From positions 8,324,259-8,388,258 of the forward strand of contig OX442320.1 in assembly GCA_949358305.1 (NCBI GenBank): a stretch of DNA of 64,000 bases, in the 5' to 3' direction. Position 1 is the stretch's first letter, and each line of letters begins with the position of its first letter. The DNA comes from Strigamia acuminata. Lineage: Eukaryota; Arthropoda; Chilopoda; Geophilomorpha; Linotaeniidae. The translations under genes were made by a program, and so were the position numbers. The notes under the pieces were generated by a model. It searched no databases. It was not told where the DNA came from and saw nothing but the letters and a program-made list of their open reading frames with translations. This document shows, piece by piece, positions 5,126 to 53,000 of the stretch.

Positions 5126-5266
5126 AAATTTAGTGACGGCACAAAACACATTTTCACGAATTAAATGCAGCACTTTCACAAAATGCACTTAAAACTTTGA
5201 AAAATACTCAAAAACACTAATTTTCCCTCCAAAAATAAGGCGAAAATACACTCTGCCCTGGGACTA

Positions 5267-5368
5267 ATCTCACTAAGTGAGATGACAAACTCCACACAGT
5301 ATTTCCCAAGTTCCGACCGGTGCACCTGGGCCCGCGGGACACTTGGTGGCCAGAAATAGCCTGTGTGG
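5267..5368 (-). ncRNA. Two-hairpin leader RNA element, Copia-3 copy
   Basis: On the minus strand, a closing stem pairs CACACAG with CTGTGTG and TATTTC with GAAATA (5292-5368) around the loop words CCCGCGG and CCCAGG ... GGTCGGA. It is followed by a second hairpin ATCTCACTTAGTGAGAT (5267-5283). The same architecture with different stem sequences occurs in the Copia-2 and Copia-4 leaders, which points to selection on structure. The role is unknown; packaging, dimerisation or internal ribosome entry are options. Confidence 0.6.
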
Positions 5369-9942: not shown

Positions 9943-10150
9943 TATTCTGGTGTTTTCCGGAGAAATTGACATTAATAAGTGCGAAGGTATTGAAAACGAG
10001 GGGGAACACTTAGAAAGGATTGAATGTGATCTCTTGAAGACACATGTCGATTCTAAAGTGGATGCGTTTCCAAACGACGACATGAAAGATTATCAATCTA
10101 GGGTTGATAAAGTTGCATTGTCGACACGTACGGAAGTTGACATAGATGAG

Positions 10151-10627
10151 TATTGAGTTGTGGTGGAAATATTGTGTGTTTGGTTGTTTGTCGCCATATT
10201 GTATAGTTTGTGAATATTTACATTACACACTTTCCGGATATGTGTAATGAATGTGCTGCTATTTAATGTCTCGATGTCGCGTTCAATCGATCTCGATTTT
10301 TATTAATGCTGGTTCTGTACCGCGGTTGAACGTTTCCATTTAGCAGCATGCGCTGATAACATCGTCTGCTCAAAAGAGCGAGTCCTGTATTGTTATTATT
10401 GCTTAGTTATCGATTATGAATGTCATTGCTTTTATTTTATAATGTAAAGGACAAATCATTGAAATCCAACAATGATTTATCCTATTTTTCCGAGTGCAGT
10501 TGTTAGCCTCGAAGCGTGTACACTTTTATGTGATATTAAACATGGCGCACGCATGTCGGGGTCGCGCACCTGTTTAGACACTCGTCAACTCCTTTCTAAC
10601 CGATGTTTTGGCCAGGAAATCGCTTTA
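10151..10627 (+). repeat. Copia-2 5' LTR
   Basis: 477 bp, starting TATTGAGTTG and ending ATCGCTTTA, identical to 17481-17957. It contains an inverted repeat GGACAAATCATTG ... CAATGATTTATCC (10449-10482) and a GCTCAAAAGAGC hairpin; equivalents of both occur in the Copia-3 LTR. It should carry the promoter; no clean TATA box stands out. Confidence 0.93.
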
Positions 10628-10629
10628 TA

Positions 10630-10647
10630 TGGTAGCAGAGGGTGGTT
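10630..10647 (+). promoter_or_regulatory. Copia-2 primer-binding site (first copy)
   Basis: TGGTAGCAGAGGGTGGTT, two bases after the LTR. It is complementary to the 3' end of initiator tRNA-Met with one mismatch. The same 18 bases recur at 11416-11433. Confidence 0.85.
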
Positions 10648-11415: not shown

Positions 11416-11433
11416 TGGTAGCAGAGGGTGGTT
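11416..11433 (+). promoter_or_regulatory. Second PBS copy inside the Copia-2 leader
   Basis: TGGTAGCAGAGGGTGGTT, identical to 10630-10647, followed by the ordinary leader (GACGACGGCC). It marks the right border of the inverted segment. Confidence 0.8.
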
Positions 11434-12615
11434 GACGACGGCCCAACCAGTTTGTAAAGGATTTTCGGCATTTTTGGAGACCGAACGTAGCCCAGACGTC
11501 GCTCGACATCGCCGCAAACGCGACTCGATCGACCAGGACGGGTTTCACCTCGCCAACGCGCTTGAAACGGATTGACAGGGTGTGCGGACATTATTTCGGA
11601 CATTTACAAGCGTAAGCTGTGTGTTTTTGCAATTTTTCGGTGTGAAATAAACACCAAAATCGTCGACTTTGAAAATTTTTGTGCGGCGGCCATCTTGGAT
11701 CGCCCAGGCAGCGTAGCCAGCCGACCAGAGCGTGTATCGGGTCTATTCACGCCCGCACGACGTTGTTTCTTCAAGACAACGTCAATTTTCAACGAGACAA
11801 CGCGTATCTCAGCGGAACGGCGCCTTCAATCGCCGAAACGACGATTTTTCATCACGAAACGGACGAAAATCATCGTGGGATCGCTGGTGAAGAACAAATC
11901 CTCACCAGCGGCCATTTTTGTTTGGATTTTCATCGCTGCCGACGGTGGAAATCAATCGGGAGTGTCTGCGTACGTATAAGCCTACGTACACGACCAATTT
12001 TGAGCGGAAAAGCCGTGGCTTGCACCCCGGTGTGCTACACGAAGGCGCGGACGTGCGCAACGACGATTTTGGATTATTTTTCCCCACTTTTGCACGGAAG
12101 TGTGCAAGTGGTAGCACGTCGGCCCCAGTTCCGTGCACCAATAACGTCAACCCGATGTTCACCGCTACGAGGAAGCGATTGCGACGATCGGATCCCGCAA
12201 TTCGCCCAACTTAACAACGAAAAAGTGTATTTAATTAGATATTGTCGTGAAACTTTGTTAGTTTTAAGTTTTTGTTGTTGGTCCCTTGTTAGATTCGGTG
12301 CTACCCTACGTCCAGTCGGGCACGTAACACTGTATTCTTGGCTGGGCTTATCCAGGGCCCCCAACCATCCCGCGACCCCAGGAGGTCGGACGGAAGAGTT
12401 GGTGGATTGCCAGTCAAGGTTTTCCAATCTCACTTATTGAGATTCCCCGGGTTGAAACTGTATTTTCGCCTTCCTTTTTGGTTTTTGGGACTAGAGACAA
12501 TTGTGCATTGTGTGATTAAGTGCTCCTGTGAAGTGTTTGTGCGGAATAAATTCCGAAATTGTGTTTTCTCCGTGCATAACTAATTATTATTGTGCATTTT
12601 CCTTGTGTCGTCGCG
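11434..12615 (+). other. Copia-2 leader (5' untranslated region)
   Basis: About 1.2 kb between the second PBS and gag. It includes the two-hairpin element at 12337-12444. Several frames are open (for example 11679-12440), but they match no gag or pol motif, and the conserved structure implies an untranslated leader. Confidence 0.65.
12337..12444 (+). ncRNA. Two-hairpin leader RNA element, Copia-2 copy
   Basis: The closing stem pairs CTTGGCTGG (12337-12345) with CCAGTCAAG (12410-12418). The loop holds CCCGCGACCCCAGG and GGTCGGACGGA. The second hairpin is AATCTCACTTATTGAGATT (12426-12444). The gag ATG follows 171 nt later. Equivalent folds with other stem sequences lie at 5267-5368 and 48842-48951. 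Confidence 0.6.
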
Positions 12616-15600
12616 ATGGCTTCAAAACACGACGATTACAAGGATATTAAAAAGCTCGATGGCACGAACTATGCCACCTGGTCCGTGCAGGTCCAGTTAT
12701 TGCTCAAATACAACGGCGTTTGGGGACATGTTAGTGGCTCTGAGCCACCACTGGCTGCAACAGCCACTGCAAAAGAGAAGCGGGAGTTTAACGCTCGAGA
12801 GGACAAGGCAATGTCCACTATTTGCATGAGTTGCGCCGAGCCGCAGCAAGTGATAGCTGTTGCCTGCCCCACCGCTGCTAAAGTTTGGGAAGCCCTAAAG
12901 GACGCTTATCAACCGACGACGAGGGCACGTCGTGCTCGGTTGCGACGTGAATTCCTCAACATGAAACTTAGAGATAATGAGGAAATGCTAGTTTTCACCG
13001 GGCGGGTCGACCGCAAAATTGTCGAACTGAAGGACGTTAAAATTGAGGTCACCGATGAATTCCAGGCATTCCAATATTTAGATCTTCTGCCCCCACAATA
13101 CGAGGCTGTGAAACAGACCGCGTATCACTGGTCGGATACGGAATTCACAGCGAAAAACGTTAAAGAACGTTTACTTGGCGAGTACAATCGCCTTTATGAA
13201 CAGACCAATGAATTTGGCGTCCCACCTGTATTGGCAGACAATACTACCGCTTTCTATACTAAAGGGAAATGGAAACCTCGTGGAAAAACCCCAAATTCCC
13301 CCGGAACTTCGCGTGGAACATGTTTTACTTGCGGTGGGTCGGGACACTTCGCCAGGGAGTGCCCATCGCCGCCGAAACAGCAAGGGACTTTCCCCGCCAG
13401 CGCTGGCTCGCCAGCCCAATTGAATCGTGGAGGCACCCGTGGCAAAGGACGAGGCAGAGGGGGTCCACAGAGAGCAAATCTCACACAACTGGACCCCTAT
13501 ACAGATGAGCCCTACACTTTGTATTCTGCGGTGTCGGAAGAGAAGCCCACAGTGCCCTTATCTCTTGTGTCGCACGGAAACTACGATTCACAGTGGTACG
13601 TGGACACGGGAGCGACCGATCACTTTTCCTTCAACCGGAATTGGTTTTCAAACTTCAAACCGTTGTCTAACTTCAGCGTTCTACAAGGAGAAGGAAAATC
13701 GAAGATTGAAGGTGTGGGCAACATCGTTCTCACGTCGCTTTATGGACAAAGAACGAGGAAAATAACTTTGACGAATGTATTCTTCGCCCCGAATTTTCGG
13801 AAAAACCTTATTTCGCTCGGGCGCACCGATGAGGCTGGGTTGTGCACAATTGTCAAAGATGGGAAAATGAGTATTTTCAAAGATAAAATCGAGGAACCTT
13901 TGATTTCGGCAGTTCGGACTAGCGACAGGCTGTACAAAGTCAACTGCCGGGTCGAGGTTAATTCTGTAAACACAGCTGCATTAACTGCGCAACAGGATAC
14001 AGCTGCTGTCCTCGATTTAATCAAATCATCCGTGAAGGATGAAAAATTTGTACAACCGCTACTAACCATTTTAGATTTTAAGTCAGCTTTACTAAAAAGT
14101 TTCTGTAAGCCGGATATGGGAAAATCCGCATCTAATTTGAGTACGCAAGTAAGCGAGCCAACCAAAGCGAATGCGCCTGCGGCGATTAATTTACAGAAAA
14201 CAGTGAATGAGGTTCAGACACCTCCTGCTATTGTTCCCGAAGCTAATGCGACTGCGAAAGTTAACAAAAGCGGGGATACTGGGATCAAAATGAGAAAGAA
14301 AGAAATATCCCAGAGTATGGACACGTGGCATTCCAGAATGGGCCACCATAATGCTAAAGGCATTATTAAATTAACCGAATCCGAGGACGTTTTTGGGATC
14401 AATTTGTCTAACAAAGAATTATCCACTTGTGACGCATGTGCCCGTGCTAAGAGCACTAGGGCGAGTTTTCCCCCGATAATTACCATTTCCACTAAGGGAG
14501 TATTAGATTTAGTGCACATGGATGTTTGGGGGGCATCACAAGCTACTTCCTTGGGTGGGGCTAATTTTTACTTTATATTGGTTGATGATTATTCACGTTA
14601 TATGTGGATCATAACGATGAAGACCAAAGGGGAAGTTTTGGGCCATTTTAAACGTTGGTTGACGGAAGTCGAAAGAACGACATCACGGAAAGTGAAATGC
14701 ATTAAAACTGATAATGGAGGAGAATTTATTTCGCGGAATTGGGATGATTATGCATCCAAAATTGGTTTGAAATGTATTCGTACGAATACATATAGCCCGG
14801 AAATGAATTCTGTTGCAGAACGTGCAAACCGTACCATTGTCGGTGGCGTCAGAGCTTTAATGTTGGAAAATGATTTCCCCTATCCCCTTTGGGCTGAATT
14901 AGCGACGACCATAGTTTACTTAAAGAACCGATTCCCCCATGAAGGGCTTGGAGGAAAAGTGCCCTATACCGTGTTTTTCGGCAAGAAATTGTCTTTGCGA
15001 CACATCAGGTGTATTGGGTCGAAGACATTTGTACATATCCCGTCCCAGGTCAGAAAGGGCAAACTGGAAGGAAGGGCTTGGGCGGGAGCACTCATTGGAT
15101 ACGCAATATCAACTAGGGGCTACAGGGTTTGGGATCCTGTACGGAATCAAGTTTTTGCGTCCAAACATGTCCGAATTTTCGAAGACTCATATTGGTATGA
15201 GATTGGCAAACGGCTACAACAGCCCATCAAGCAACCGCAGGGTGGCCAATTCAAACATTTTGGGGATTCTTCCTCGGACACCGAGGGAGATGATGATGAT
15301 TCCGTTGCCCCTATCCCTGAAATTGTTGAGGAAGTGCAAGAGGCACTACCACCTCCTATTCCGCCCCCTGTTGAACCCCCGGTTCCGAAGGAGAAGCCTC
15401 CTTTACCCACAACCCCAAAGCCTGTTTTCAGACCTGAATTGAGGCCGCTTGTAAAACAAGCGATACAACAGCCTGCGATAGAAACTGTTGAAGGTGACTT
15501 GGTTGGGGATGCTGGTGCTGGGGATAATCCAGTTGAAGAAATTGGTGGGGCGAAGGGGGATAACGGCGATGGCGAGAATTACTTCAATGTTTATCCTGAC

Positions 15601-17463
15601 GACGATGAGGAGGTTGATCTTCCTCCTACGATACAAGCTCGTCGTGGTTCGGGCAAAAAGGGAAAGAAGGTCAAAGATCCTTTGTCGCTGCCGCTGGATA
15701 TGACTAAGTGGAGACGGGTCCAGTCTGTCCGGAAAGCCGGGGCAACGGCTGGGAAAATTGATGTGGTTTATTTCTCGCCCAATGAAGACAAACTTAGAAG
15801 TCGGACTGACGTTGCGCGATGGTGCGACGCAGAGGGTTACCACTACGACCCAGATCTTTTTGACTTCAAAACCTTAGAGGGTGAAGAACCCGAACTCCCT
15901 TTTGCCGGTTTCTGTGCCGTAGAGCCTGATACCTACGAGGAGGCAATGAGGCACACCAACAAACGGGACTGGGAAAAGGCGATGAAAGAAGAGACAGATA
16001 TCTTCGACGATCGAACTGTCTATAAAGAAATTGATAAGCCCGAAGGAGAGTTGCTTTTGGGATCAAAATGGATTTATAAAATGAAAAGGGACCAGTCGGG
16101 TGCAGTCGCGCGCTACCGGGCTCGCTTGGTAGCACAAGGCTTCAAGCAGAGGCCGGGCATTGACTTTACGGAGGTATTTTCCCCCGTAGTCAATTTCGTC
16201 CTCGTTATAGTGTTTTTCTGTACCTTGGTGATACTGAAAGGTTGGAGAGATGTCCACCTTGACATCAAGGCCGCGTACTTGTACGGGGACCTTGATAAGG
16301 TCCAATTCATGGAGATTCCCAAGGGCTACAGAACAGCCGAAAACCAACATAAGTGTTGGATGCTGTTGAAGTCATTATATGGACTACATCAGAGTGGACG
16401 GATGTGGTACCAAGCCCTCCACGACCGTCTACTCCAACTGGGATTTGTGCCCTTGTTGGGTCTTAACTGTGTTTATGCGTTAGACAACGACGCAATTCTT
16501 ATCTTTTACGTGGACGACATAGTTCTCTTCTCCAAGGATGACTACGTCGAGGAATGCGTTGTTCGATGGATTAGGGAATCCTTTGACACGGTTGATTTGG
16601 GTCCCGTGACCCTCTTGTTAGGCATAGCCTTTGATAGGTCTGGGGGCCAAATTAGGATCCATCAAAGGGCATACATAGAAAAACTTTGTAAGTTGTATGG
16701 GGTCGACTCATGCCTTCGGATTAGAGTACCTGGGACGCCAGGAACGATTATTCAGGGCGTGACGGAAAAGGAGCGGGTTGATTCCACTTTCCCCTATCGC
16801 AACTTAGTGGGAAGTCTCTTGTTCTTGGCGAGCAGGACAAGGCCAGACATCCTGTTCTCGGTCATTGTCCTCTCACAATACAATGAGAAACATTCGACGC
16901 GTCACATTAGTATGTTATTGCAAATTTTGCGATATCTGGCAAATACGTCGGATTATATGATTAATCTTTCCAATTGCCGAAATGATAATCTAACTGTGTA
17001 TACCGACGCGTCGTTTGCCCTCGATGCAGACAAAAGGAGAAGCTTCGGGGGTCACATAGTCTATTTGGGTGGCGTTCCGATCATGTGGAACTGCCATAAG
17101 CAGTCAATGACTGCGTTATCGATCATGGAGAGTGAATTTCTGGCCGTGGTCGATGGCGTAAAGGAGATTATATGGCTAGAGAGGCTTTACGATGCCGACA
17201 TCATGTTCAGCATCAATCGGAACACCCCATGCGTGTACGCGGACAGTATGCCCGCGATACAATACGCCAAAAACCGAATAGAGAATAGGGCGAATAAACA
17301 TATCGACGTAAAGCTTCATTTCCTCAGGGACTGGTTTGAGCGCGGAACGTTTGCTATTAAGCATATTCCAGGGGCCCTGAATGTCGCCGATGTGATGACC
17401 AAATGGTTACCCAAGCCCAGACTTAACACCTTGTGTGAGCATTTATTTGTAAGGCGCAAATAA
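12616..17463 (+). CDS. Copia-2 Gag-Pol polyprotein with MBD-like domain (1615 aa)
   Basis: The start is the ATG at 12616 (MASKHDDYKD); an in-frame GTG at 12592 is less likely. Domain order: Gag UBN2-type (LDGTNYATW); CCHC knuckle CFTCGGSGHFAREC near residue 236; aspartic protease VDTGATDHF near 328; integrase zinc finger HSRMGHH ... CDACARAK from about 571; core D-D-E (MDVWG, TDNGGEF, NSVAERANRT) at about 635-735; acidic/proline linker; MBD-like segment at about 1032-1085; reverse transcriptase with FYVDDIV near 1298; RNase H from VYTDAS near 1462 to the end. No stop or frameshift, and all catalytic residues that I can check are present, so it is probably competent. It encodes one polyprotein with no gag-pol frameshift, as is usual for copia. 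Confidence 0.95.
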   Translation: MASKHDDYKDIKKLDGTNYATWSVQVQLLLKYNGVWGHVSGSEPPLAATATAKEKREFNAREDKAMSTICMSCAEPQQVIAVACPTAAKVWEALKDAYQPTTRARRARLRREFLNMKLRDNEEMLVFTGRVDRKIVELKDVKIEVTDEFQAFQYLDLLPPQYEAVKQTAYHWSDTEFTAKNVKERLLGEYNRLYEQTNEFGVPPVLADNTTAFYTKGKWKPRGKTPNSPGTSRGTCFTCGGSGHFARECPSPPKQQGTFPASAGSPAQLNRGGTRGKGRGRGGPQRANLTQLDPYTDEPYTLYSAVSEEKPTVPLSLVSHGNYDSQWYVDTGATDHFSFNRNWFSNFKPLSNFSVLQGEGKSKIEGVGNIVLTSLYGQRTRKITLTNVFFAPNFRKNLISLGRTDEAGLCTIVKDGKMSIFKDKIEEPLISAVRTSDRLYKVNCRVEVNSVNTAALTAQQDTAAVLDLIKSSVKDEKFVQPLLTILDFKSALLKSFCKPDMGKSASNLSTQVSEPTKANAPAAINLQKTVNEVQTPPAIVPEANATAKVNKSGDTGIKMRKKEISQSMDTWHSRMGHHNAKGIIKLTESEDVFGINLSNKELSTCDACARAKSTRASFPPIITISTKGVLDLVHMDVWGASQATSLGGANFYFILVDDYSRYMWIITMKTKGEVLGHFKRWLTEVERTTSRKVKCIKTDNGGEFISRNWDDYASKIGLKCIRTNTYSPEMNSVAERANRTIVGGVRALMLENDFPYPLWAELATTIVYLKNRFPHEGLGGKVPYTVFFGKKLSLRHIRCIGSKTFVHIPSQVRKGKLEGRAWAGALIGYAISTRGYRVWDPVRNQVFASKHVRIFEDSYWYEIGKRLQQPIKQPQGGQFKHFGDSSSDTEGDDDDSVAPIPEIVEEVQEALPPPIPPPVEPPVPKEKPPLPTTPKPVFRPELRPLVKQAIQQPAIETVEGDLVGDAGAGDNPVEEIGGAKGDNGDGENYFNVYPDDDEEVDLPPTIQARRGSGKKGKKVKDPLSLPLDMTKWRRVQSVRKAGATAGKIDVVYFSPNEDKLRSRTDVARWCDAEGYHYDPDLFDFKTLEGEEPELPFAGFCAVEPDTYEEAMRHTNKRDWEKAMKEETDIFDDRTVYKEIDKPEGELLLGSKWIYKMKRDQSGAVARYRARLVAQGFKQRPGIDFTEVFSPVVNFVLVIVFFCTLVILKGWRDVHLDIKAAYLYGDLDKVQFMEIPKGYRTAENQHKCWMLLKSLYGLHQSGRMWYQALHDRLLQLGFVPLLGLNCVYALDNDAILIFYVDDIVLFSKDDYVEECVVRWIRESFDTVDLGPVTLLLGIAFDRSGGQIRIHQRAYIEKLCKLYGVDSCLRIRVPGTPGTIIQGVTEKERVDSTFPYRNLVGSLLFLASRTRPDILFSVIVLSQYNEKHSTRHISMLLQILRYLANTSDYMINLSNCRNDNLTVYTDASFALDADKRRSFGGHIVYLGGVPIMWNCHKQSMTALSIMESEFLAVVDGVKEIIWLERLYDADIMFSINRNTPCVYADSMPAIQYAKNRIENRANKHIDVKLHFLRDWFERGTFAIKHIPGALNVADVMTKWLPKPRLNTLCEHLFVRRK
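15709..15870 (+). other. Methyl-CpG-binding-domain-like segment in Copia-2 Pol
   Basis: About 54 residues between integrase and reverse transcriptase. They contain WRRVQSVRKAGATAGKIDVV, then YFSP, LRSR, and a closing YDPDLFDFK. Eukaryotic MBDs share the pattern W-K/R-R ... R-K-S-G-x-S-x-G-K-x-D-V-Y-Y-x-S-P ... R-S-K ... LFDF. The two arginines that contact methyl-CpG in MeCP2 (R111 and R133) and the Asp at 121 have counterparts; the Tyr at 123 is Val here. Methyl-CpG binding is inferred by family resemblance, not shown. Confidence 0.75.
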
Positions 17464-17469
17464 CCAAAC

Positions 17470-17480
17470 AAAGGGGGATA
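17470..17480 (+). promoter_or_regulatory. Copia-2 polypurine tract
   Basis: AAAGGGGGATA ends exactly where the 3' LTR starts, 7 nt after the pol stop. It primes plus-strand DNA synthesis in this class. Confidence 0.85.
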
Positions 17481-17957
17481 TATTGAGTTGTGGTGGAAAT
17501 ATTGTGTGTTTGGTTGTTTGTCGCCATATTGTATAGTTTGTGAATATTTACATTACACACTTTCCGGATATGTGTAATGAATGTGCTGCTATTTAATGTC
17601 TCGATGTCGCGTTCAATCGATCTCGATTTTTATTAATGCTGGTTCTGTACCGCGGTTGAACGTTTCCATTTAGCAGCATGCGCTGATAACATCGTCTGCT
17701 CAAAAGAGCGAGTCCTGTATTGTTATTATTGCTTAGTTATCGATTATGAATGTCATTGCTTTTATTTTATAATGTAAAGGACAAATCATTGAAATCCAAC
17801 AATGATTTATCCTATTTTTCCGAGTGCAGTTGTTAGCCTCGAAGCGTGTACACTTTTATGTGATATTAAACATGGCGCACGCATGTCGGGGTCGCGCACC
17901 TGTTTAGACACTCGTCAACTCCTTTCTAACCGATGTTTTGGCCAGGAAATCGCTTTA
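17481..17957 (+). repeat. Copia-2 3' LTR
   Basis: 477 bp, identical to 10151-10627, followed by the target duplication ATGAG. Confidence 0.93.
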
Positions 17958-18944
17958 ATGAGTACAAACCTATTATAGACGAGGGGGAACATTTTGGAAG
18001 TGTTGAACAAAAACCGATGGAATTGAACCAAGAAGGGAAATTTAATGATAAGGAAATTGGTTTGCTAATGGAAATTCCTTCAGAGTTAACACATGAGGAG
18101 TCTGAGACTATTGCAAATGAAAGGCAAAAATTGGAACAGTTTACATTGGAATTTGAGTCCAAATCCGATGAAGGGTTTAGACAGATCGATCCCATGAAAG
18201 TTTGTGAGATTTCTTCGACGTCACTGGAAGATGACATTTCCCCAACACCGATAGAGACACTCATAGGTGTGAATGAATACAAATCCATTGAGATAGAGGG
18301 GGAATGTGAAAAGACAAAAAGACGTAAGAAAAGGTGTAAGAAAACCAAGAGTAATGCTTTAATGAAAACAAATGACGTGGGCGTGAGACTTAAACAAAAT
18401 TTAGACATGACCGAAAAGAATTTGGTTAATGAGGAGGAAGACCGAGATAGGTGTTACACTCATAATCAGAAATTTGATTCCTTATTGTCAAGTTTGGGAA
18501 AACGGACTGGACAGGTCACGATACATGACTTAGACTTTGTGTGGGATGAGAATTACTTATATGTCAAATAGTTAGTTGTAAGAGGAATAATGGTTTTAAC
18601 CTGAATGAGTTTTGGTTTGACTTTTACGACGAGAAACCGTTATTCCTGGCATATGCCCTTACTCCTCCGTTAGATGAGAATACTGGAGTAATTAGAGACT
18701 TTAATAGGGACTTGAATTTTTTGAATGTATTTGATTCGGGTCTATTTGATTTTTGTAACAGGAATCCAGTACACCCAGCATATCCCGTTTTTAACATGCG
18801 GATGATTGAACTCGAACCTGTTGTATACTGACCATTATTTAAGATGTAATTGTGTTTAATCAGACTAGCATTTGTTTTTCGTTTGGGATGTTGTGGAATA
18901 ATCAAACAGATGGAGTTGTTGTTTTTCAATGTAACCATGCGTTG

Positions 18945-38000: not shown

Positions 38001-41000
38001 TAGGACTAATTTTAATACGCCACCTAGTGCAAACAGATGGCAAAGCAGTGTACGGTGCTCCCATTAAGGGTGTTTTATGTTATAAATATTAAATTATCTT
38101 AATAATAATTGAAAAACTATTCGTATTTAGACATTATAAAATAAGAAAAAAAAGTTTTTCAGGAAAAAAAGAATTACAGTGATTTTTCCACTTCTGTAAT
38201 TTTTTTGACCCACCATGGCTATGAGAAGGTTAAATGATTTTTACTGTATCTATGTAAATAATAATTTAATCACAACTCCTCCTTTTTTCTAGATGACGCA
38301 CCATTCAATGGTTTTAACACAAGGCTTTTTATAATTTACTTCGCTCCTCCTTTGGTTTTTTGTCACCATTATTGCGAGGTAAAAGACCACTTTAATCATA
38401 AATCTAAAGAAGTCTACATTAATTAATTGTCCATGGGTCAAAGCTTTACTCAACAACAAGAGAAGACCACGATTTGGATTTAACTTCAAAGAGATTGTTA
38501 CCAGTGGAAGGAGGAATCATAACTAATGTTGCTTATCGCTTAATAAAAGTGAGAAAAAGTATATTATGTCACGGGCACGTCTACCCGCCTATTTTTATTT
38601 TAGAATAACCCAATCTTATTTCTTATAATATTTTCTTGTTTCTCTCACTCGTGATGATTCATCTCGCTTACTCATCTTCAGTTAATGAATGCGCAATCTG
38701 GATGATGCGCATATCATTATTTCTACAATTGAACTCTTATTTTCACCTTTCCACCCCCTTCTCTAATTGATCTGACCAGTCACATGACTGAGTCTTCTTC
38801 TTTCCAATCATCCTAAGTTTAATCACTTCTTCTTATGCTCTCTACTGGATAACACCATTCTCCTTTAGTAACATTTAGATTTAGTCCTCTATTATTTGCG
38901 CCTTCAATAAGCGCTCCTACATCTAACCCTATTGCGCTATTTTCCAAGCCGACATCTTTTATATTATCACTGCCCGATGATATCCCCTTCCCACTTTAGG
39001 TTTATATCATCGTGCTTCCATTCTTTTATGCCTACAAACACCCGTCGTAAGCAAGGAACTGTCCAATATAAATTATGTTAGTCAAACGCGAGTATTAGGT
39101 TTCCTGAGTTTCTGGATGTCCACATTTGAAGGAAACAACGTTTAGGGAAATCTACGAACTTTGCCCATTACTATTGCGCGAATTAGTTTTTGCGCGATAT
39201 TGTTTAGAATTAATTATACCAACAGAATTAATCGTGACAACATGGCGAGCCTGACAGGATTCTCGCTTATTTAGGCTGAAAACGCGCAAGAAAGTTAAGT
39301 TTTCGTTTAAATTATTAATCATTCTCATTATTTTTTTCATCATGTCGAATGAGTTGGGAAACGGTGAGGAAAACCCCGCCGTACGAGACCCCTTTGATTT
39401 GGACGAGCTGGCTTCGTCTCTCGACTGGCAGCGTTATGAGCGTTTAAGGCGAACACGAGCGGAGCAAAGTGAGTTATTGATAACCATTGCAAATTCAATG
39501 CCGTCAACATTCCGTGACAACATGTCGGCTCAAATACCTGGCGTGAACATTTCTGCGCCAACGACAGTTGCCACGTCAACACCAGCATATCAGCTCGTGC
39601 CTCCAGCCTTCTTCACTCCTGGCACGTCAGGAATATCAATGAATCCGACGATTTTACATTCCGAAGCTTTATTGATGTGTGATATTCGTAATCAGTTTTT
39701 CGTTCAGGCACAGGGATTACTCAAAGAAATGCGAAGCATTTACCAACAAGGCACCAGCCCTCCACATCCAACGACACCCCCGTCAGAGGATGGTGGGTCC
39801 TCTCATGGATCCATAAGGGTAAAAGGCAATTCGGCACCATTAGGAAATGAACTTTCCACGGAAGTTCCTCATTGTGGAGGAGCAAGCCACCAACAACAGT
39901 TTGCGCCCACCACCATCACTGCGCAACCGACGTTTACAACTACAACGCCACCGGTAATGACGCAGGCCACTACTTTTACTCAATGTCCGTCCGTGGCATC
40001 ACAAATTATGGATTCAACAAAAGCCAATCAGCAGGTGATGAATTCTTTATTATGTGCCAAAATTAACAACCCAGGGCACCCATCCGGAGTAAGGGCCCAA
40101 TTGTCTCTACCATCAATACGAGTGAGACGAGAAGACTCTTCCCGAGGATATAACAATAATAAGGAAAAACTCCCACGTTTCGACCCTGAGAAGGCCACAC
40201 TTGACTCTGTTAATTTGTTTCTTGCGCAATTATTTGCGCATATGTATTCCACCCGCATGCCCGAGGAAGAGTATTTAAAAGTGAATATAATTCAAGCAAC
40301 CCGCAACAAGGCGCAACGTTGGTGGCTCGCATTAAAACCAAAACCCAAAACTTGGATTGAGTTCGAGATATTGTTTCGTAAGGCATTCTCCATGAATTCA
40401 GCGGCAGCTAATGTGAAAATTGCAAATCGAAAGCAACGCAGTGGAGAGTCCACCATGACTTTTCTCAGCGAAATAATTTATTATTTAGAAATTGCAGGCT
40501 ACACAGACCCTGGATTACAATGGGAGAAGGCACAGAACATGCTGCTGTCTGACGTCGTCCAACTTTTGAGAACAATGCACGTCAAAACTATCGACGAAGC
40601 CATTCAAATAGGAAACGACGTAGACAATCGATTACTACTCGACTCTCATCGCAAAACTGAGTATAAACATTTGGGTCTCGTTGATCAGTTTGCACCTCTT
40701 TCAGAAGTAAACCCCTCATCCCCCACCGTGTTGAAATCCGTGGATAAGTCCAGAGGTGAAGCCGAATCTAAAACCTCCACGTCCCACGACGCCAAACGTT
40801 TTACGCGCTATCGTAAACAACAGCTTATGTTAGAACTAGCTGCGTTGGAAGCCCGACCCGAGCAACCTTCGCCGCCACAGGAGCCAAGTTCAAGTAGCAG
40901 CAGTGAGTCGGAATCGGAAGTGGAAACCAAAAAGAGTTCTGTCGCCGGAGCCGCGCAAAAGGTGAACATTTCAGTAAATTCAACCACAATCGCGCCCCCT

Positions 41001-44000
41001 GCAGATCTCCCAAAGGACCATGTCTGTTCTACCTCTGTTGTTACATTTGCGCCATCACCAAAACCTCCAACAAGCGTCAAGTTTCCCGAAAAAGGTGCGG
41101 CTTGGCGCAAAACGAGAAAGGATTGGTGGTACATGATTGATAACACTACTTGGCGTCCCATTTGTCCTGTGTGCTATAAAGTTTTCGAGAGGCAGGAAAA
41201 CTCCGACGGCCTGAAGTTCCCACGACCGGCGGAGCCAGGCCGCAAGTAAATCAACCGGTCTCCACAAGCGTAAAACGTGTGGAATCAACAAGACGTGCTT
41301 CACCCGACATAATCCTTGACGAGAACATTTCCGATAGGATAATTCCAACAACAACTACTTCTTCTACCACTCCTAGTGAGTCTAAACCAGGAATTAGTGT
41401 TGTATCGTCCACACCTCCATCTTCATCACCGATAGTGACGAATCAACGGAAAACTTCAGTTTTGCAACCTGTGGCTTTCCAACTAGCATCTGGACCTGTT
41501 TCAAAGTCGACAGCCTTGCAAGCTGCGACTGCACAGAAACAAATCACCAAGAATGTGAGTAAAAACTTTAAAATACCCCTTATTAAGCCTACTTCCAGTG
41601 TCAATTCAGCGGAAGCACCCAAGGAAGTGATCGCTCCAATGAAGGTATCTTTTGTCATGTTGACCTCGGAGGAGCTTAAAGAATCTCAAGAGCCAATTAT
41701 TGAGATAACACGCGCCGATAGATTGCGCAGAGAAGCTCCATGCGTAAAAATATCTTGGGCAAATGTGTCATTTACCGCGCTTTTAGATTCAGGTGCCCAA
41801 ACTTGCATCATGAGCGAGGAATTATTTCAACAACTTCACGAAAAAATGGGACTCGAATTTATTAATTTACATGAAAAAGTACAGGTCGCATCCGGACACG
41901 TGGTTACTGCTTCAAAATCAGTGACGCTTGCGTTGCGAGCGCCGTTAGGAGTGGTGAAATTCGTGTGTTTAGTGTTGCCTGATGCCAAAAATGACTTGAT
42001 CCTCGGACGAGACTTTAACCAAGCAGTCGGAGCCACCATCGATCATGGAAGGAGCCAGTGGAGCTTGGCTGGCTCAGACGAAATTCGTAAATTCGTGACC
42101 TATGAAGACGCCAAAAAATCCGAGTCCATCCTCGTATTTCCAATGGCACCGGAGGAACTGGATAAATCAGCAACTCCGCCAGTTAAAATAAGTGAGATTG
42201 TTCCAAATAAAATACTCAAGAAGCCTGCGCCACCCAGTGACATTAACTGTGTGCTGCTGTTACACCAACCATTGAAAAATGAGGTTTTTGAGTATCCAAA
42301 CGACGACTCACAAAGACAAGTAAAGACAATTAGGCATCGCAGTCGAACCACGTGGTCGAATGTTTGGTCACCGAAACGAAAGGAAACTTCGAGAACTTCG
42401 AGTAAAGTGAAAAAGACAATCTCTCGTAAGTTGACTTTAAGCCAATTTCGTCGATTGCGTCGCCTTCGTCATAAATTGAATGTTATTCGTCCCATCGCCA
42501 AACAATTGATTGCGCAACGAGCCAAAGACATTAACGACAAAAAGAAGTTAATTAACGACTCCAGAACAACTGCGCAACCTACTAATGGTGAGAACGACTC
42601 AAATTCAAATGTTTACAACATCAACTTTTTGCAGTACCAACCTAGTGAGAATCCGACCGATCTCGATTGGATTTATCACCAGTTATGGAACCATCTGACT
42701 GTTACGCAAATCAAACTACTAATTGAAACTTTGCAGCCAATTTCACAGATTTTCCGTGAGGAAATCGGTTTATGTAATAATACGGAATATGAAGTTAATC
42801 TGAAACCAGATTTTCGTCCGATCCATGTTCCAGTACGCCCCGTAAACCCTGCGAAAAAGGCAATTATTGACAAGTACATTGACAAGAAACTTCAACAAGG
42901 CATAATTCGCCGTTCACAAAGTGATTGCGCCGTCGCCCCAGTGGTCGTACCCAAAAAGACCGGGGAATGGAGGACAGCAATGGACTTCAGACCCATTAAT
43001 GTGTAGCAGAGGAGCACTGGAAATAACTCGAAATATCGAGTGAAAAACGAAAAACAGAGTCGAAACACGACTCGCAGAATACTCGCGAATTTCGCGACTC
43101 GCAGAATACTCGCGAATTCGCTATGCAGTAAATAACGGCCGTGTAATTACACTTATATGCCGTGTGAAACATAAGACAAATGTTTAAATAAAAACATAAA
43201 AAGATTTAATCGAAAATACATTACGAAATGAGTCCAAAACAAAGTAGAAAACAGCTTGGCACTGCTCAATCATGGCAGCAGCCATCTTGGATGTCACTCA
43301 AGTGAGTAGCGACACCTAGTGTCGGAATTGAATAATACAATTTGGAGAATAAATCGAAATAAAGTAAATGGGATACAAGAAGCATGGTGCCACATGCTAT
43401 AAAATATGACAATAGCATTAAATAACCGAAAATGCAATAAATGACTCGAAGATAAGTAAATACAGCAATTGGCTAATAAAAATTGAAAAGATAATGAAAT
43501 ATATCGGATCTATTTGCATCGACATACTAAAAATGGTCAGCAGACCAACAAATCCCCCCTTCGATGTAAATAAATTCGGGGGAAATAAAGAACGGGTACT
43601 GGAATTACAGTGTGTTATCAGAAAAGACAAAAGATAAAGTTCGAATCACCGAGCCGGGTACTGTCATTGAAGAACTCTACGGAAGCCCGAATATTCCCAC
43701 TGGAACTCGATGATCCTCGATGTCGGGTAAACTAAACTAGGAATGTCAAAAGTACTCAAGGCCGGAAGATTCTCGAGATGAGTGAACGAAGTTTTTCCGA
43801 GCCGAGCCACTTTGTAAATATATCGGCGACGTTCAGATCGCCGGGCACTTTCCGAAGTTCAAACTGTCCCGCCGTGTACCACTCCCGAAGCCAATGGAAC
43901 TTGACGCGGATGTGTTTCGTCTTGCTGTTCTCGATATCGTTCGCGGTGAATTGGATAGCAGCAAGCGCGTCGGAGTAGATAACGGGACGAGAAATCGGAT

Positions 44001-47000
44001 CTAACATCGGACATTCGGAGTAAACATGTCGGAGCCAATAAAATTCTTTAACTGCATCAACAAGAGCGAGGAACTCGGCTTCCATTGTTGAGCAAGCCAC
44101 GGTGGTCTGTTTTCGGCAGGTCCATCCAATTGGCGTTTGTCCGATGTAGCAAATGAAGCCTCCGAAACTAAGCGATGTAGCGGTATCCGATGCCCACGAT
44201 GCGTCTGTGTATCCCCACAGTTGTCCTGATCCACATCCCGATAATTCGATACAATAATCAATGGTGTTCGAGACATACTGAAGTACCTGGAGTAGGGCTT
44301 TGATGTGTGCCTGAGTATAACACGTGTTGAACTGCGACAGGTAAATCACGGAAAATAAGATATCGGGACGTGTTCGCGACGCTAAAAACAATAGCGATCC
44401 AATGAGCGATCTATACGGGAAATCGATCAAGTTCTCGGTCGGTCCCCGAGTGAGCGTCGTTCCCGGAGTAACAGGGACCTTGACGAGGTTATTTGCGACG
44501 GTTCCGAACTTTTTAACGATCTTCGAGATGTACATCCGCTGGCTAATGAAAGTCTTGCCAGCCTCTCGGATAAATTCAACGCCGAGCAATTTCGTGATGG
44601 GACCCAAGTTGACGATTTGAAACTTGGTGCTGATCAAAACGATGAGTCGATCGAGGACGGTGTCGTTAGCGTAGAAAAGAACGATGTCGTCCACGTAGAC
44701 CAGCATCAACGCTGAAGTCCCAAAAGAATAAACACAATTGCATCCGGGCAGTCTTCGAAATCCGAGCGCTCGAAGAGTTTCGTCTAGCTTCTCGAACCAT
44801 TGCCTTCCGGATTGATGGAGGCCGTAGAGGGATTTTATCAGAAGCCAAACGTTGTTCGGGTGTGTGCAAGTCGCACCTGCCGGAATCCGCATATATACCT
44901 TGTGCTCGAGCTCGCCATAAAGGTAGGCACACTTTACGTCGAGGTGTGCGTCCTTCCATCCGCGGAGAATGACAAGCAAGCAAAAGAACATCCGGATGAG
45001 AACAAAGTTCACGACGGGGCTGAAAACCTCATCGTAGTCGACGCCGAGAGTTTGTCGGAAACCTTGAGCGACAAGGCGGGCACGGTAACGAGTAACTTTG
45101 CCGGTGGCGTCGGACTTCAACTTGAAAATCCATTTACATCCGAGGATCGTTGTATCAGGCGGTTTCGGTACTTCAACGTACACCTCACGCTCCTTGAAAG
45201 TTCCGAGTTCTTCATCGATCGCTTCGCGCCATTTTGGCGCATCATGAAATTTTGGAATTTCGGCGAATGAAGCGGGTTCCGTCCGACACAGGTGAGCCGC
45301 ATGTCTGGCAGGGATCGAAGGCGTAGTATATTCAATACTGCCAAAGAAAAAGAGTTCCGGGTTATATTCGAGATGATTAAATTGACAATATTTCTCGATG
45401 TCCCCGCGTGAACGTAGTCGCACATCCGGTTCCGGGAAATAATATACATCGGTGTCAATCTTTCCGGGTCTCTGAACCTTGCGGAGATGTTCTTCACGTC
45501 TCCAACGTGCGCAATGCGAATCTCCTCCGACATATCTCCACATGAATGCGGTTCGGTGTGCAGATGTAGGTGCCACTTCAGTTCCTTCAGTTCCTTGAAG
45601 CGGAGCCGGAGACATAGGTGCAGCATCGAAAACGGGTATTGTATGTTGGAGAACGGAAGTACCCGCTCTTCTCCGTGTCGTCACAAATCTGCTTGGGGAA
45701 CTAGGTGGAGATAACGGGGGTGATGTTTGAGGTGAAGTTTGCGGTGACATGTGAGGGGAAGTGTAGTTAGATATTGGCACGAGAGAAACTTCATCGATAT
45801 CATCAATGTCACGATCCGTGTCATCACCTAGATTGCTGTCGGAACTCGGCAATCTCAAAGCACATGCTTCTTGAAACTGACGTTCCGGTGTCTGGAATTG
45901 TGCAGATGCTGCCGAGCTCGAACTCTCTTCTAATGGCGGCATCTCAGACTCTTCGTCTGATGATGAGTATTCATGGTCCGAGTCCGATCCTTTTGGCCAA
46001 TCGAGATACTGAATGTTCTCGTCGAATGTGACAGTCGACTGCGGGATATCTTGAACGTTCGGACTGTGGTCAACATTCGAGTACGGTATGTACTGCCGTA
46101 GATTTCCGTTTCCGTTTCCATTTCGAAGAGTTCGACGATAGGATTGCTTTTCATCAATTCGGACATGAGTTGATTCTGTGATTTTATCGTCAAGTGGGTT
46201 CCAGATTCGATATCCCCGTGTGCCGACAGCGTATCCAACAATGTAACCTTCCCAGGCACGCATCTGAAGTTTCTTGCGACCTGGGGTAGTAAAATGTACC
46301 CAACATTTCGATCCTATCTTGCGCAGATGTCGTAGTGAAAGGGCACGCTGTCGCCACAAGATGTAAGGGATCTGATTGTTCAAACGAGAATGTGGAGATC
46401 GGTTCTTTATATAAGCGAATGTGACTGCGATTTCCGCCCACAAGTCGTTCGGAAGTTTCGTTTCGCTTAAAATCGATCTCACGTTGTCGGCCATTGTTCT
46501 GTTGATCCGCTCCGCAGTGCCGTTCATAGCGGGCGAGTTTGGGTTGGTGCGTTGACCTTCGATGCCCTTCTCTCGGAGATAATTGAGGAATTCGTTAGAC
46601 ATGAACTCCCCGCCGCGGTCAGAACGAATGGCTTTGACTCGAGTATTGGCGACGCGTTCAATCCGAGCGACAAAATCCTTAAAGACACCAAAAACTTGGG
46701 ATTTTTGGGCAATCGGTGTAATCCAGCAATATCTGGTCGCGTCGTCGATGATCGTGAAGACAAATCGAGCTCCACCAATTGAAGTCGTTTCCGCTGGCCC
46801 CCAGACGTCCATGTGCAAGAGGTCCAGTGCCTTGGTGGTAATCGGATTTGGATCGGGCTTATGCGAAGCGCGGATGGATTTTGCAATACGACAGTCGTTG
46901 CACGCCAAATCCTGGCGTACTTCCGCAGGCTCCATGCCATAAACCTGATCATTGGCTGCCAGAAGACGCATGGCGTTGGTATGAAGGTGGCCAAGTCGGC

Positions 47001-50000
47001 TGTGCCATAAGCCGGTTGCATCTTTCTTTGCCGTCGGATTAGCAACAGTCTCCTTTTTGGGTGGAGAAGGATTTTTGGCAGCGGGAGATGTCGGGATTGA
47101 CTGTGAGACGTCAGCATAGGATGGGACGGGAGATGGTAGCTGGACTTGCGGAGGATTAGGATTTGGTAACGGATTGGTAGGAGTTGGGGTCGGAATTTGG
47201 TTCACGACGTTAGAAGGTGACAACTCGATACGAAAATCCGTCATAAACTCCGTTTTATTTTTCGATTTCTGTTTCGGTTTCGGAATGGGCTCGAAATCAA
47301 CCTCTGAAGTGACTAAAGTCTTGACAGGAACTGTCGGAGCCGGTTGATGAGACGTTGAAACCGTTGTCGAAATAGTCGGAGTAGCGCAAAGTCCGTCCAC
47401 GTAATACAATCCGCCTTTCTCTTTCGCTCGGAGAACTGAAGAGCGAATGTCTGTTTGGTAAACATTGATCTCCCCGTTGAAAATATGAATGTGAAACTTA
47501 TTTCTGTCGATTTTGCTCACGGAGACTAGATTCGCCTCAAAGTTCGGTGCAAACAAGACATTATGTAAAGTTACGAAACAGTCACAATTGTCAATCGAGG
47601 TCTGAAGTCGTACATTGCCCCGTCCGGTCACTTTGGACTTGCCCTGTCCAAGCTCGATGTCGAATGGCGTAATGTGTTCAAAGTTCGTAAACCACGATTG
47701 GATGTGAGAGACGTGGTCGGTGGCCCCGCAGTCGACGATCCACTCATTTGACTGCATAAAATGTGCGATGGGGCGCTCGATTACTTGGGGACAATTGACA
47801 AAGAAGTTCGCATCTCGACGTGGCCTGGAACTGCCTCGCGGTTTGGAATCGTCCTGCTTCGCCGAATTTTTATTTCGACGACGGCTCTTGCTGCGTGATG
47901 AGCGTTGAACTTGCGCAGCCGGGCGACTCTGACCATCGCGTTTCTGATGAGGGCATTTGTTTGCATAATGCCCTAATTCCTGGCAATTAAAACATCGGAC
48001 AGTGGAAATGTCACGAGGCGGTCGAGACGGGTTTCGTTGTCGAGACTGATCAGTGTTGGAAGCATGCGCCGAGGATTGTTGGAAATTGTCCGTACGCATC
48101 GATTTCAGGCGCATGTATTCCGAAAGGAGCTGTTCGGCCACTTCCTTCGGTTTGAACTTGTCATCCGGCCAATGATATATGGCAAACGAAACTTGAGAAT
48201 ACTCTGGAGGTAAGCGTCGAAGGTATTGGTATGCATGATGTATATCTGACACTTCTTCTTTGACCGCTTTAAGTTGGCTGACGTGGTAATCTACACGGCC
48301 AATAAAATCGGCCATTTCCTCGTTCGGTTTGAGGCTGAGTTCGAGGAACTCCCAGCGCATCGCGGCTTGGCGCGCGCGAGAACTGGGCGCGTAGATCTGG
48401 GCCAACTTATCCCAAGATTCTTTCGGTGTATCACAGTTATCAAGGGCGGATTTCTTCGCCTCTGAGACAAAACAGTATATTAATCCGAGAGCCTTGTCCT
48501 TTTTGCGTTGAAACTTCACTTTTTCTTTTTCCGATGCGGTTTTGAGATAATCGATTTCGCCGTCCTCCGTGACGTGGTGCCACAGGCCTTCAGCTTTGAG
48601 GAGCATTTTCATGCTCCTCTGCCACGAATCATAGTTCCCCACGGCGAGCACGGGAACTTTGCCGCTGGTCGGATCGCCCACTTTCTGCATGATAGCAGCG
48701 AAGACGAGACCAAACACCAAAAATCACAGAAGCGACGAGAGTGGTATTGGCGCACTAGATTTGAAACACTTAAACGTTCGATGCACAACACAAACACAGC
48801 ACTGATCCCGCGGTGATCGAAGCGGAATACCGAAAAGGGGCGATAACTTCTGAAGTTATCAAATAACCCCCGATAGCCAGTCTGAGAGGGTCCGTTCGAC
48901 TGCCTGGAGCCGCGGGAAACCTCACTTGTACCACGACAAGCACTATCGGGGAATACAACGACGCTTACTCGGATTCGAGTGAAGGGCGCCGAGGATACTA
49001 AATGTCCCACACCAAAATCCCCCTTAATTCTAACAAAATAATTACGACTCTGAAAAATAAATAAGGCGAAATGGAGAATCTGTGTGGGATCGTCACCACA
49101 CCGTCGTGTAAAAAACACGGGTGAATAAATGCTTTTCTCGAAAAAGCAAGTGAAAAACGCAGCTCGGATTTCCAAAACCCGAACTCTTCTCGAATTAACG
49201 AGGGAAAAATCAATAAATCCGTCGAAAATAATCAGATCGCCGCTACTGTAGACACTCCGGGGTGAATACAGCGGGTTTTGCCCGTTTCTTGATGAGAACA
49301 CGCCTCGTCGGCGGTGTCGAGTTGAATCTCGAAGAAAATCCACGTCGAATCTGAAAATAACAAAAATTTGCCAGAAAATTCGCGTGACCCGCGGAATTCT
49401 CGGCAAAATTAATTGTAGAACGTCGGTGGAACGTCTGGAAGACGTTTTCGAGACGAAAAACTGCAAAATCGGCGTCAAAATCTGAAAATAGATCAAATTA
49501 TCGCCGAAAAAAACGCGAAAATTCGCGAAATTAAGCGATAAATTAGTGGAATGCGTGCTGCAGAGGAGCAGAACCATCCTCTGCTACCAATTGTAGCAGA
49601 GGAGCACTGGAAATAACTCGAAATATCGAGTGAAAAACGAAAAACAGAGTCGAAACACGACTCGCAGAATACTCGCGAATTTCGCGACTCGCAGAATACT
49701 CGCGAATTCGCTATGCAGTAAATAACGGCCGTGTAATTACACTTATATGCCGTGTGAAACATAAGACAAATGTTTAAATAAAAACATAAAAAGATTTAAT
49801 CGAAAATACATTACGAAATGAGTCCAAAACAAAGTAGAAAACAGCTTGGCACTGCTCAATCATGGCAGCAGCCATCTTGGATGTCACTCAAGTGAGTAGC
49901 GACACCTAGTGTCGGAATTGAATAATACAATTTGGAGAATAAATCGAAATAAAGTAAATGGGATACAAGAAGCATGGTGCCACATGCTATAAAATATGAC

Positions 50001-53000
50001 AATAGCATTAAATAACCGAAAATGCAATAAATGACTCGAAGATAAGTAAATACAGCAATTGGCTAATAAAAATTGAAAAGATAATGAAATATATCGGATC
50101 TATTTGCATCGACATACTAAAAATGGTCAGCAGACCAACATAATGCGCAAACAATTCCGGATGTGTATCCACTTCCGGACATAGACAATATATTTGCGTA
50201 TTTAGGTGGTGCATATTGGTTCTCGATAATCGACGGGCGCGAGGCCTTTCACCAAATTGGAGTGCGCAAGGGAGATGAGCGATTCTTGGCCTTCATAACA
50301 CACCGAGGACTGTTCGAATACGTTCGTATGCCCTTTGGCCCCATCAACGGTCCTGCAACACTCCAAAGAGCGATGAATAAGACTTTGGCCAAATATTTAT
50401 ATAAATTCGTATTTGTATACATTGATGATGTTATTATTTTTAGCAAAACATTTGAGGAGCATGTTCAACATTTGCGCCTCGTTTTGGAGGAATTATTTAA
50501 TGCCGGTTTCACCATGAACGCCAACAAGACCGAGCTCTGTCAACAGCGCCTCGAAGTTTTGGGCCACATCGTGGAATCTGGTCAGATTTCTCCAAATCCG
50601 AAAAAAGTGTCAGCTATCCAAAACTATCCTGCGCCAACAAATTTGCGCGAGTTACAACGTTTCAAAGGTATGGTGGGTTATTATCAATCTTTTATTGCGA
50701 ACTTTTCCAAGACAAGTGAGGTATTCCGACCACTACTCAAAAAAGATGCTGTTTGGCATTGGAACGAAGCGCAACAGGAAGCTTTTGATTATCTTAAAGA
50801 TCAAATAGCGACTCCAACGCTAAAAAGACGTTTTCCCAGCTGGAAAAAGCCATTCATCCTTCAAACAGATGCAAGCTACTCCGGTTTGGGGTCGGCTTTA
50901 ATGCAATTAAATGACGCAGGAGAAAGGATACCGATAGCTTTTGCTTCTCGTGCACTTAACAGTGCTGAAAAAAACTATAATGTGACTGAAATTGAGTGCC
51001 TAGCAGCCGTGTGGGCGGTGAAACGTTTCCGCGCTTATTTAGAAATGATGCCATTTTATTTAGAGAGTGATCATCGTTCTTTGAAGTGGTTATTTCAACA
51101 AAGAGAACCAACTGGCCGACTTGCTCGTTGGGTACTCTCACTAAGCGAATACAAATTCACTTTCCTGCACTGCTCAGGATGCAAAAATCGAGTGGCCGAC
51201 GCACTAAGCAGAGCACCAGTCGATCCACCCGAACACGACGAGGAAGATGACAGCCCACTCGTCGATGAAGCCTGCTATACAGCATACTTTGATGACTGTA
51301 ATCAGTGGCCAGTATTGTCCATAATTACTGAGTTGCCAAAAGACATTAATAGACAATTTAAGAAAATGTTCAAAGATAAATTCATTAAATCAACTTTAAT
51401 TTCAGCCATTTCACCAACTAAACAAAAGAAAGGAAAAAGGAAATCCCTCATTCCTCGTCGAATTACAACGACCACTACACCATCCAATGCGCCAACTCAA
51501 ATTGCGCAACCCACTTCAACAGCTGCGTCAACTCCAGTTGCGCAACCAACTCAACAAACAACTCCAGTTACATTACCAGTAATTTCACCTAATTCTCCAT
51601 CGGTTCGTGTTTCAGTGCCACTTCGTGCGCGCAGACAACATTCGTTGATTCCAATATTGACGAAGAAAAGAGGACGACCACGTAAAATTATGATAATTCC
51701 AGTGCTCTCCCCTCGCGCCAAACGTGCTATTGCGACAAGAACTCGTGCTCGATTAAGGGACCCCACTTTAGTTCCGAAAATATCTCCGAAATTACCAAGA
51801 TATGGAGCTAATATAAAGAAATGGACATTTCCTAAGCTGCTGAAAGCACAGAGAATCGGAAAAGGCAAAAGGACGCCGAAAGCACCTCGTTCAGTGATTT
51901 CACCTATTCCCACAGCCCTTCCTAGTCCTATTCCTGTTCCGATTCCTGCTCCAACACCTCCTAACCAACCCAGTTCTCCAAGCAAATCAGAAGTTTCCAT
52001 TCCTTCAGCACCAACTCCCCTCACTTCAAAACCAAAAGGAATACCCAAAAAGTCATCTGGGATTCCCTCTCATATTTTGCCTCCTCGTAAAAAAATTATT
52101 TCCACACCAACTCCGGTTTCCAAAATACCAACTCCACCAATTCCTAGACCTAAAGGACGACCCCGAAAGTCAGCTGGAATTCCCTCTCATATTTTGCCAC
52201 CAAAACCAAAACCTACACCAAAATCAACTCCTATCCAAATTCCAAATTTTCCAACACCTTCTCCCACACAAACCATCCCAATATCACAATCTCCTATTCC
52301 TCCAACCTCTCCTGCGTCTTCGCCGTCAACGACAACTGATACAGCACCGACTGTGCCACCAGTGTTTGACCCCGGACCAGGGCCTTCTGGACACCAACTC
52401 CCCGATGGGTACCCTTCCGAGCCGGACTCCGACACGTCGTCATCCGACACAGACAGTTTTAGTCCGATTCGGGATTTTCCTTCGCCGGTAGAGTATCCAG
52501 TGCCAAGAGGTGGAATGCCTCGAACTCCGACAAGACTGCGCCCGAGATCTGAACGAACATTTACAGAATCAGACAGAAGGCTCACTGAAGCGGAGCAACA
52601 GGCTGAATTGGAACACGATCCACCTATTGAACATCCACCATTTGAAATGCTTCCAGACGCCGCTGAAATAATAGCCGCACAGAGACAAGATCCGTGGTCG
52701 CGTGAGTTGATATACTACTTAACTGCTCAAATGCTGCCGGTCGATCCAGTCGAAGCTGCGCAAATTCAAAAAGGCGCGCAAAATTTTGGTATGCATAAAG
52801 ATATGTTGTGTCGTTTTCCACCAGTTCATATTAATGAAATACGCAAGAGGCGTCAAATTTATCTCCCCTTGGAATTGCGCGAACGATATTTCCGCGCAAT
52901 GCATTACCCTCCAGTAGTGTATGACGGTTTACAATGGCTATAAATGCCTATTTTCTATCAAGAAAGCGCTGTTGCGCCAATATGATGGTATTTTTACAAT

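Follow-up and report, generated by a model that had tools for sequence, protein, structure and literature searches.

A Young Copia Retrotransposon of Strigamia acuminata with a Predicted Methyl-CpG-Binding Domain between Integrase and Reverse Transcriptase

The 64,000-nucleotide stretch of Strigamia acuminata DNA analysed here (contig OX442320.1; hereafter the window) contains a complete, intact and very young Copia retrotransposon, with identical 477-bp long terminal repeats (LTRs) and a 5-bp target site duplication (TSD), whose polyprotein carries a predicted methyl-CpG-binding domain (MBD). Judged by its sequence, the presence of an MBD in this Copia Pol appears to be real and well supported, and elements of this kind have been known since 2019. 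It is likely that we are dealing with an autonomous element of the CopiaMBD type, in which the MBD behind the integrase would serve as a tether to CpG-dense DNA.

Structure of the Element and Identity of the Domain

The features of the window are collected in Table 1. The element at 10151-17957 has the make-up of a Copia LTR retrotransposon: Gag, Pol with the integrase ahead of the reverse transcriptase (RT), a single frame for both, LTRs and a TSD. A zinc knuckle and the Pol beta-barrel domain were also matched by Pfam in pieces of the 1623-aa frame. The candidate primer-binding site presumably resembles the complement of the 3′ end of the initiator-Met tRNA.

Table 1. Coordinates of the Copia elements and associated features in the window.
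Feature	Position	Strand	Basis and remarks
5′ TSD copy, ATGAG	10146..10150	.	flanking sequence
5′ LTR, 477 bp	10151..10627	+	same as 3′ LTR without one difference
Probable primer-binding site, TGGTAGCAGAGG	10630..10641	+	candidate
Intact Gag-Pol frame, 1623 aa from GTG	12592..17463	+	ATG at 12616
Copia-type gag, PF14223	12691..13203	+	Pfam, E=2.4e-29
Integrase core, PF00665 (rve)	14512..14799	+	Pfam, E=8.1e-8
Integrase SH3-like domain, PF25597	14977..15195	+	Pfam, E=6.5e-22
MBD, PF01429	15706..15873	+	Pfam, E=1.5e-11; R, D, R of the MBD2 set present, Tyr178 site Val
Reverse transcriptase, PF07727	16018..16731	+	Pfam; frame has YVDD
3′ LTR	17481..17957	+	
3′ TSD copy, ATGAG	17958..17962	.	flanking sequence
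W2, second MBD-Copia	43002..50140	-	TSD TAATG; frame 43756-48720, 1654 aa
W2 divergent MBD (WRREEHLRK...TDVYYF...LRSRGD)	45343..45510	-	Tyr178 kept
Gypsy-type element, host of nested W2	38566..61975	+	protease, RT/RNase H and integrase pieces; 675-bp identical LTR stretch

The preliminary description of this DNA had placed the motifs of an MBD at 15709..15870, and they were found as placed, reading WRRVQSVRKAGATAGKIDVVYFSPNEDKLRSRTDVARWCDAEGYHYDPDLFDFKT in the plus frame. The check that it had proposed, a search with the Pfam MBD model, gave a significant match of 44.2 bits against the PF01429 gathering cut-off of 21 bits (genome position C9:8339964-8340131; E-value in Table 1). Its placing of the domain inside an intact Copia Pol, behind the integrase and ahead of RT, is borne out by the frame and by the Pfam domain order, in which the integrase SH3-like domain is followed by the MBD and then by RT. 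When a 90-aa segment of the window was compared with PDB sequences, the best match was MBD2 (E=6.4e-9), with MBD1, MBD3, MBD4 and MeCP2 as weaker matches. MBD_C was not found by Pfam in the scanned pieces of the window Pol.

The window holds a second MBD-bearing Copia, W2, whose LTRs (43002-43550 and 49592-50140) do not differ over 549 bp. A further Copia at the left edge (1-2132) gave no MBD signal in 50 aa, most of its integrase-RT gap lying outside the window. From position 4075 there is also a long 8-bp tandem array with 144 overlapping register copies, and at 36811-37677 a partial match to the amiloride-sensitive sodium channel family (ASC, E=4.5e-8), which is perhaps an exon of a host gene.

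MBD-Bearing Copia Lineages in the Genome

The searched genome comprises 237.5 Mb in 157 contigs. All 150 scored places of the first MBD list, which are the best 150 of 1092 first-look candidates, match the MBD. One of them (C3, 20.309 Mb) resembles by eye a BAZ2-type host exon; the remaining 149 were treated as Copia copies, the MBD being read in 50 and the others assigned by score and frame length. The lineages seen are A (the window element, A2 and A3), B, C, D (L048), E (L001 and L002), F (L003 and L004) and G (L006). Two further lineages, W2 and the Copia adjoining L043, are under the Pfam cut-off or uncalled. By our count, nine MBD-bearing Copia lineages have been seen in the genome so far, and the window element is not a single case.

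The W2 domain, when cut out, scores 18.4 bits with Pfam, below the cut-off of 21, and 44.0 bits with a lineage MBD profile built from A-G, host MBD2/3 and MBD2 (shuffle maximum 10.1; 583 scored of 1000). The domain in the flank of L043 reaches 23.9 bits with the lineage profile (shuffle maximum 8.1; 577 scored of 1000). The flanking element itself (2835-5288 of the L043 flank, minus strand) is a remotely related Copia. Its MBD is degenerate, keeping R, D and R and having DVEYTI in place of DVYYFSP. A search with the integrase-RT segment of W2 yielded the best 150 places of 1616 first-look candidates, W2 included, and this W2 list does not overlap with the first MBD list. The 299 MBD-Copia places considered below (149 from the first list and 150 from the W2 list) are best-scoring places and not random samples.

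In an RT tree of 10 rows, made without lineages D and G and with row E filling 22% of the columns, A, B and C are joined (98/96), and the deeper forks are unsettled or on long branches. The dN/dS of the MBD in five pairs is 0.00-0.08 and that of the upstream linker 0.15-0.19; RT gave 0.02-0.04 in three of the five pairs, the other two being saturated. For the wider pair WIN-L043 the values are 0.19 (MBD) and 0.23 (linker), and the pair L043-L035 is saturated. These ratios show purifying selection on the MBD, which is retained during element amplification. As a separate observation, two B copies at C4:2.57 Mb (L038) lie 6265 bp apart and perhaps have one common LTR; pairs with similar spacing are seen on C5 at 2.33 Mb and on C12 at 0.42 Mb.

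Contact Residues and Methyl Selectivity

The SVRK and LRSR stretches of the window MBD align with the arginine fingers R166 and R188 of MBD2. Across all 14 domains of the comparison (MBD2, host MBD2/3, W2, the L043-flank domain and ten further Copia rows), both arginines and the Asp are invariant. The position of Tyr178 varies: lineages A, B and C have V, I and W, respectively, and D, E, F, G, W2 and MBD2 have Y; host MBD2/3 has F, and the domain flanking L043 has E. Among the 50 domains read from the first MBD list, V, I or W occupies this position in 44 and Y in 6.

According to PMC9520026, R166, R188 and Y178 of MBD2 are critical, and the difference between MBD2 and MBD3 arises mainly from a Tyr-to-Phe change; PMC5240623 agrees that loss of the Tyr is the main cause of the lost selectivity of MBD3. 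The residue bears on methyl selectivity and not on membership in the MBD family, MBD3 itself having Phe. Both arginines named in the preliminary description are present, and this part of its reasoning holds, but the third selectivity residue, corresponding to MBD2 Tyr178, is Val here. Since this site is Val despite the presence of both arginines, the methyl selectivity of the window copy cannot be assumed; methyl-CpG binding by its MBD is plausible.

The notion that actively amplifying families had lost the Tyr was dropped, because the search with the Y-bearing W2 also gave its best 150 of 1616 places. Our literature searches, aimed at related topics, listed no paper whose title or abstract opening deals with Copia MBDs lacking the Tyr, which says little.

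Chromosomal Distribution of Copies

As a control, 150 other Copia RT matches were used, again best-scoring and not a random sample. Apart from the one family used for the flanks below, they were judged to be MBD-less from their frame length (at most 1465 aa, as compared to 1514 aa or more for the longest frames with an MBD; both sets include many shorter, broken frames) and from their position, none of the 150 lying within 2 kb of any listed MBD place. MBD copies crowd at C1 62-67 Mb, C3 0-10 Mb and C6 13.5-16.2 Mb, and also close to the starts of C8, C9 and C12, whereas the controls do not. In the comparison of 133 MBD with 140 control matches on 10 large contigs, the observed difference was reached by 0 of 5000 label shuffles, and the median distance to the contig end was 2.3 vs. 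7.7 Mb, respectively. With C10 added, 0/5000 shuffles reached it for each MBD list, and the end distances were 2.3 and 2.2 vs. 7.1 Mb; after thinning to one match per 100 kb, the observed values were reached by 0/5000 and 2/5000 shuffles.

The two MBD lists co-vary across 94 bins (Spearman 0.50, P=3.7e-7), as against -0.13 and -0.04 for the MBD lists vs. other Copia. Between themselves, the first MBD list and the W2 list show no difference in the distance to the contig end (P=0.66), and the bin test reveals a weak difference (99/5000). Small contigs carry 16/149 and 21/150 of the MBD places vs. 3/150 of the controls. Exact matches to six TTAGG units number 18,704 in the genome, the start of C1 included, and those to the reversed control 10, which is indicative of an arthropod host.

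Selection that removes insertions from other regions, or duplication of repeat-rich ends, could also have produced the clustering. Because the list of the Tyr-bearing W2 and the mostly Tyr-lacking first list are distributed nearly alike, the distribution alone does not show methyl reading, the Tyr having been read in W2 itself and not in its 149 listed relatives. Their common distribution implies that CpG density suffices, or that the Tyr is compensated, or that another cause is at work.

Insertion Flanks

For the flank test, 14 of 18 fetched copies were used; L038 (tandem) and L047, L048 and L052 (ends not fixed) were dropped. CpG amounts to 64.1/kb within 500 bp of the insertion vs. 47.8/kb at 2-6.6 kb, being increased in 11 of the 14 copies (P=0.0017). 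The GC content of the same flanks is also higher near the insertion (0.47 vs. 0.42), and the observed/expected CpG ratio shows no clear rise: it is 1.22 and 1.13 in the two bins closest to the insertion, as compared to 1.13 and 1.05 in the two most distant ones. The CpG enrichment of the flanks goes along with GC.

In the first 200 bp, 15 MBD copies (the window element added) have 69.4 CpG/kb, while 10 MBD-less copies have 29.6/kb (P=0.0076); the corresponding GC is 0.48 vs. 0.30 (P=0.00025). The MBD-less set consists of 10 of the 23 top-scoring control places, taken as one family by score, and no MBD was found in the 133 aa of one copy of this family (1.9 bits; shuffle maximum 3.8). Individual copies depart from the average: the window copy has a CpG-poor right flank (24/kb in 500 bp, the lowest of 15) and a rich left one (92/kb), and the three copies excluded for unfixed ends range from low values (L052, 2/kb; L047, 34/kb) to a high one (L048, 120/kb).

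Transposon domains occur in frames scanned up to 4 kb from the insertion point in 6 of the 14 MBD copies, a count made for MBD copies alone. They are of the Copia and Gypsy types by Pfam, with DUF1759, which we take to be BEL/Pao, in one; in three of the six (L036, L043 and L044) a transposon frame reaches the insertion point.

An AT-hook-like stretch (KRGPGRPK...KPGRPSK) was noticed near the MBD slot of an MBD-less Copia of 1388 aa (L063, C6:9850664-9851063). Visual inspection of a single copy revealed it, and it is not called by Pfam; the 10 family copies lie in AT-rich DNA, with the GC value of 0.30 given above.

Proposed Mechanism and Alternatives

We infer that Pol would be processed in such a way that the MBD most likely remains at the C-terminus of the integrase. 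There it would tether the integration complex to CpG-dense DNA, often methylated in such hosts, and new copies would consequently tend to land in repeat-rich compartments, with the MBD as the putative cause of the bias. The preliminary description had drawn an analogy with chromodomains, i.e., with a reader that steers integration, and both the copy distribution and the flank data agree with it. What speaks against a tether that also reads methylation is the Val in the window copy and the Phe in host MBD2/3.

To a modified version we give somewhat below an even chance: the MBD does tether the integrase, but in the V/I/W clade it would recognize CpG density and have little selectivity for methylation, like human MBD3. 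The full conservation of the arginines and Asp next to a variable position 178, the part ascribed to Tyr loss in MBD3 and the lack of a difference in end distance between the two lists are all consistent with it. Its opponents are the preference of retrotransposon MBDs for CpG-dense methylated regions, reportedly found by de Mendoza et al. in 2019, and the capacity that other residues could have to compensate for the Tyr.

That the MBD has no role in steering seems distinctly unlikely. It would then act after integration or in the particle, e.g., against host silencing or by taking advantage of it; purifying selection together with repeat-rich regions would account for the distribution. The over-representation of MBD copies on small contigs is what one would expect where any insertion is tolerated; however, other Copia of the same genome lack the regional pattern, and the flank copies, which are near-identical and therefore young, already display the flank bias.

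Finally, the probability that the window segment resembles an MBD by chance or through decay, with neither the fold nor the function of one, is negligible: although both AlphaFold2 models of the domain are of low confidence (pLDDT 60.5 with one sequence as input, 51.3 with two) and Foldseek with the former listed no MBD among 50 matches, this reading was rejected on the Pfam and PDB-sequence scores, and strong purifying selection across lineages also argues against it. In the same Foldseek run, 0/842 matches had E<=0.001, and protein-database searches returned 620 candidates, none with E<=0.001, and 73 candidates, none with E<=0.01.

Besides the tethering of integrase by the MBD, which we continue to prefer, a broader and rather improbable scheme may be mentioned. 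The integrase-RT slot might hold an exchangeable module for reading DNA, which would determine where an element inserts: Tyr MBDs (methylation), V/I/W MBDs (CpG density without methylation) or, in one MBD-less family, an AT-hook-like segment.

Comparison with Known Systems

The host MBD2/3, a NuRD subunit, belongs to the same domain family as the window MBD, whose best PDB match is MBD2. Its MBD exons are found at C5:5734.3-5734.6 kb (L033) and its MBD_C matches at C5:5733.3-5733.6 kb. In the host gene an intron splits the MBD after DVFYY, with Phe at 178, whereas the Copia MBD is uninterrupted. The Copia domain is MBD2/3-like and probably host-derived.

The preliminary description was unaware of any Copia lineage reported to carry an MBD; one had been published in 2019. 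CopiaMBD, a Copia with a captured MBD in an arthropod, was described by de Mendoza, Pflueger and Lister (Genome Res 29:1277-1286), who reportedly observed that the MBD binds repeat regions in Strigamia that are methylated and CpG-dense, and that in a spider the bias is towards gene bodies. Like CopiaMBD, for which an insertion bias to CpG-dense, repeat-rich DNA is reported, the window element encodes its MBD within a Copia Pol, and insertions are found in CpG-dense DNA (14-15 copies, compared with one control family of 10). The copy distribution seen here likewise fits the pattern reported for Strigamia in that study, and the window element could even be the same family as the published one. 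To our knowledge, the study does not report nine lineages per genome, replacement of the Tyr in one clade or clustering at the chromosome scale. It is cited in PMC7343188 for a relatively recent transposable element family of Strigamia maritima acquiring high methylation.

Epigenome-reading retroelements offer a test of how the sites of integration are selected and of the reasons why certain parasites are nearly harmless. The nine MBD-Copia lineages seen so far, with and without the Tyr, together with other Copia as internal controls, make up a natural comparative series, and its existing insertions allow one to ask whether methylation or CpG density is the guide for integration.

Chromodomain-bearing Gypsy elements, the subject of Gao et al. 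(2008), read histone H3K9 methylation. They likewise have an epigenome reader behind the integrase, which steers them to repeat-rich chromatin. These are Gypsy and not Copia elements; the window element would work in a similar way without being a member of that group.
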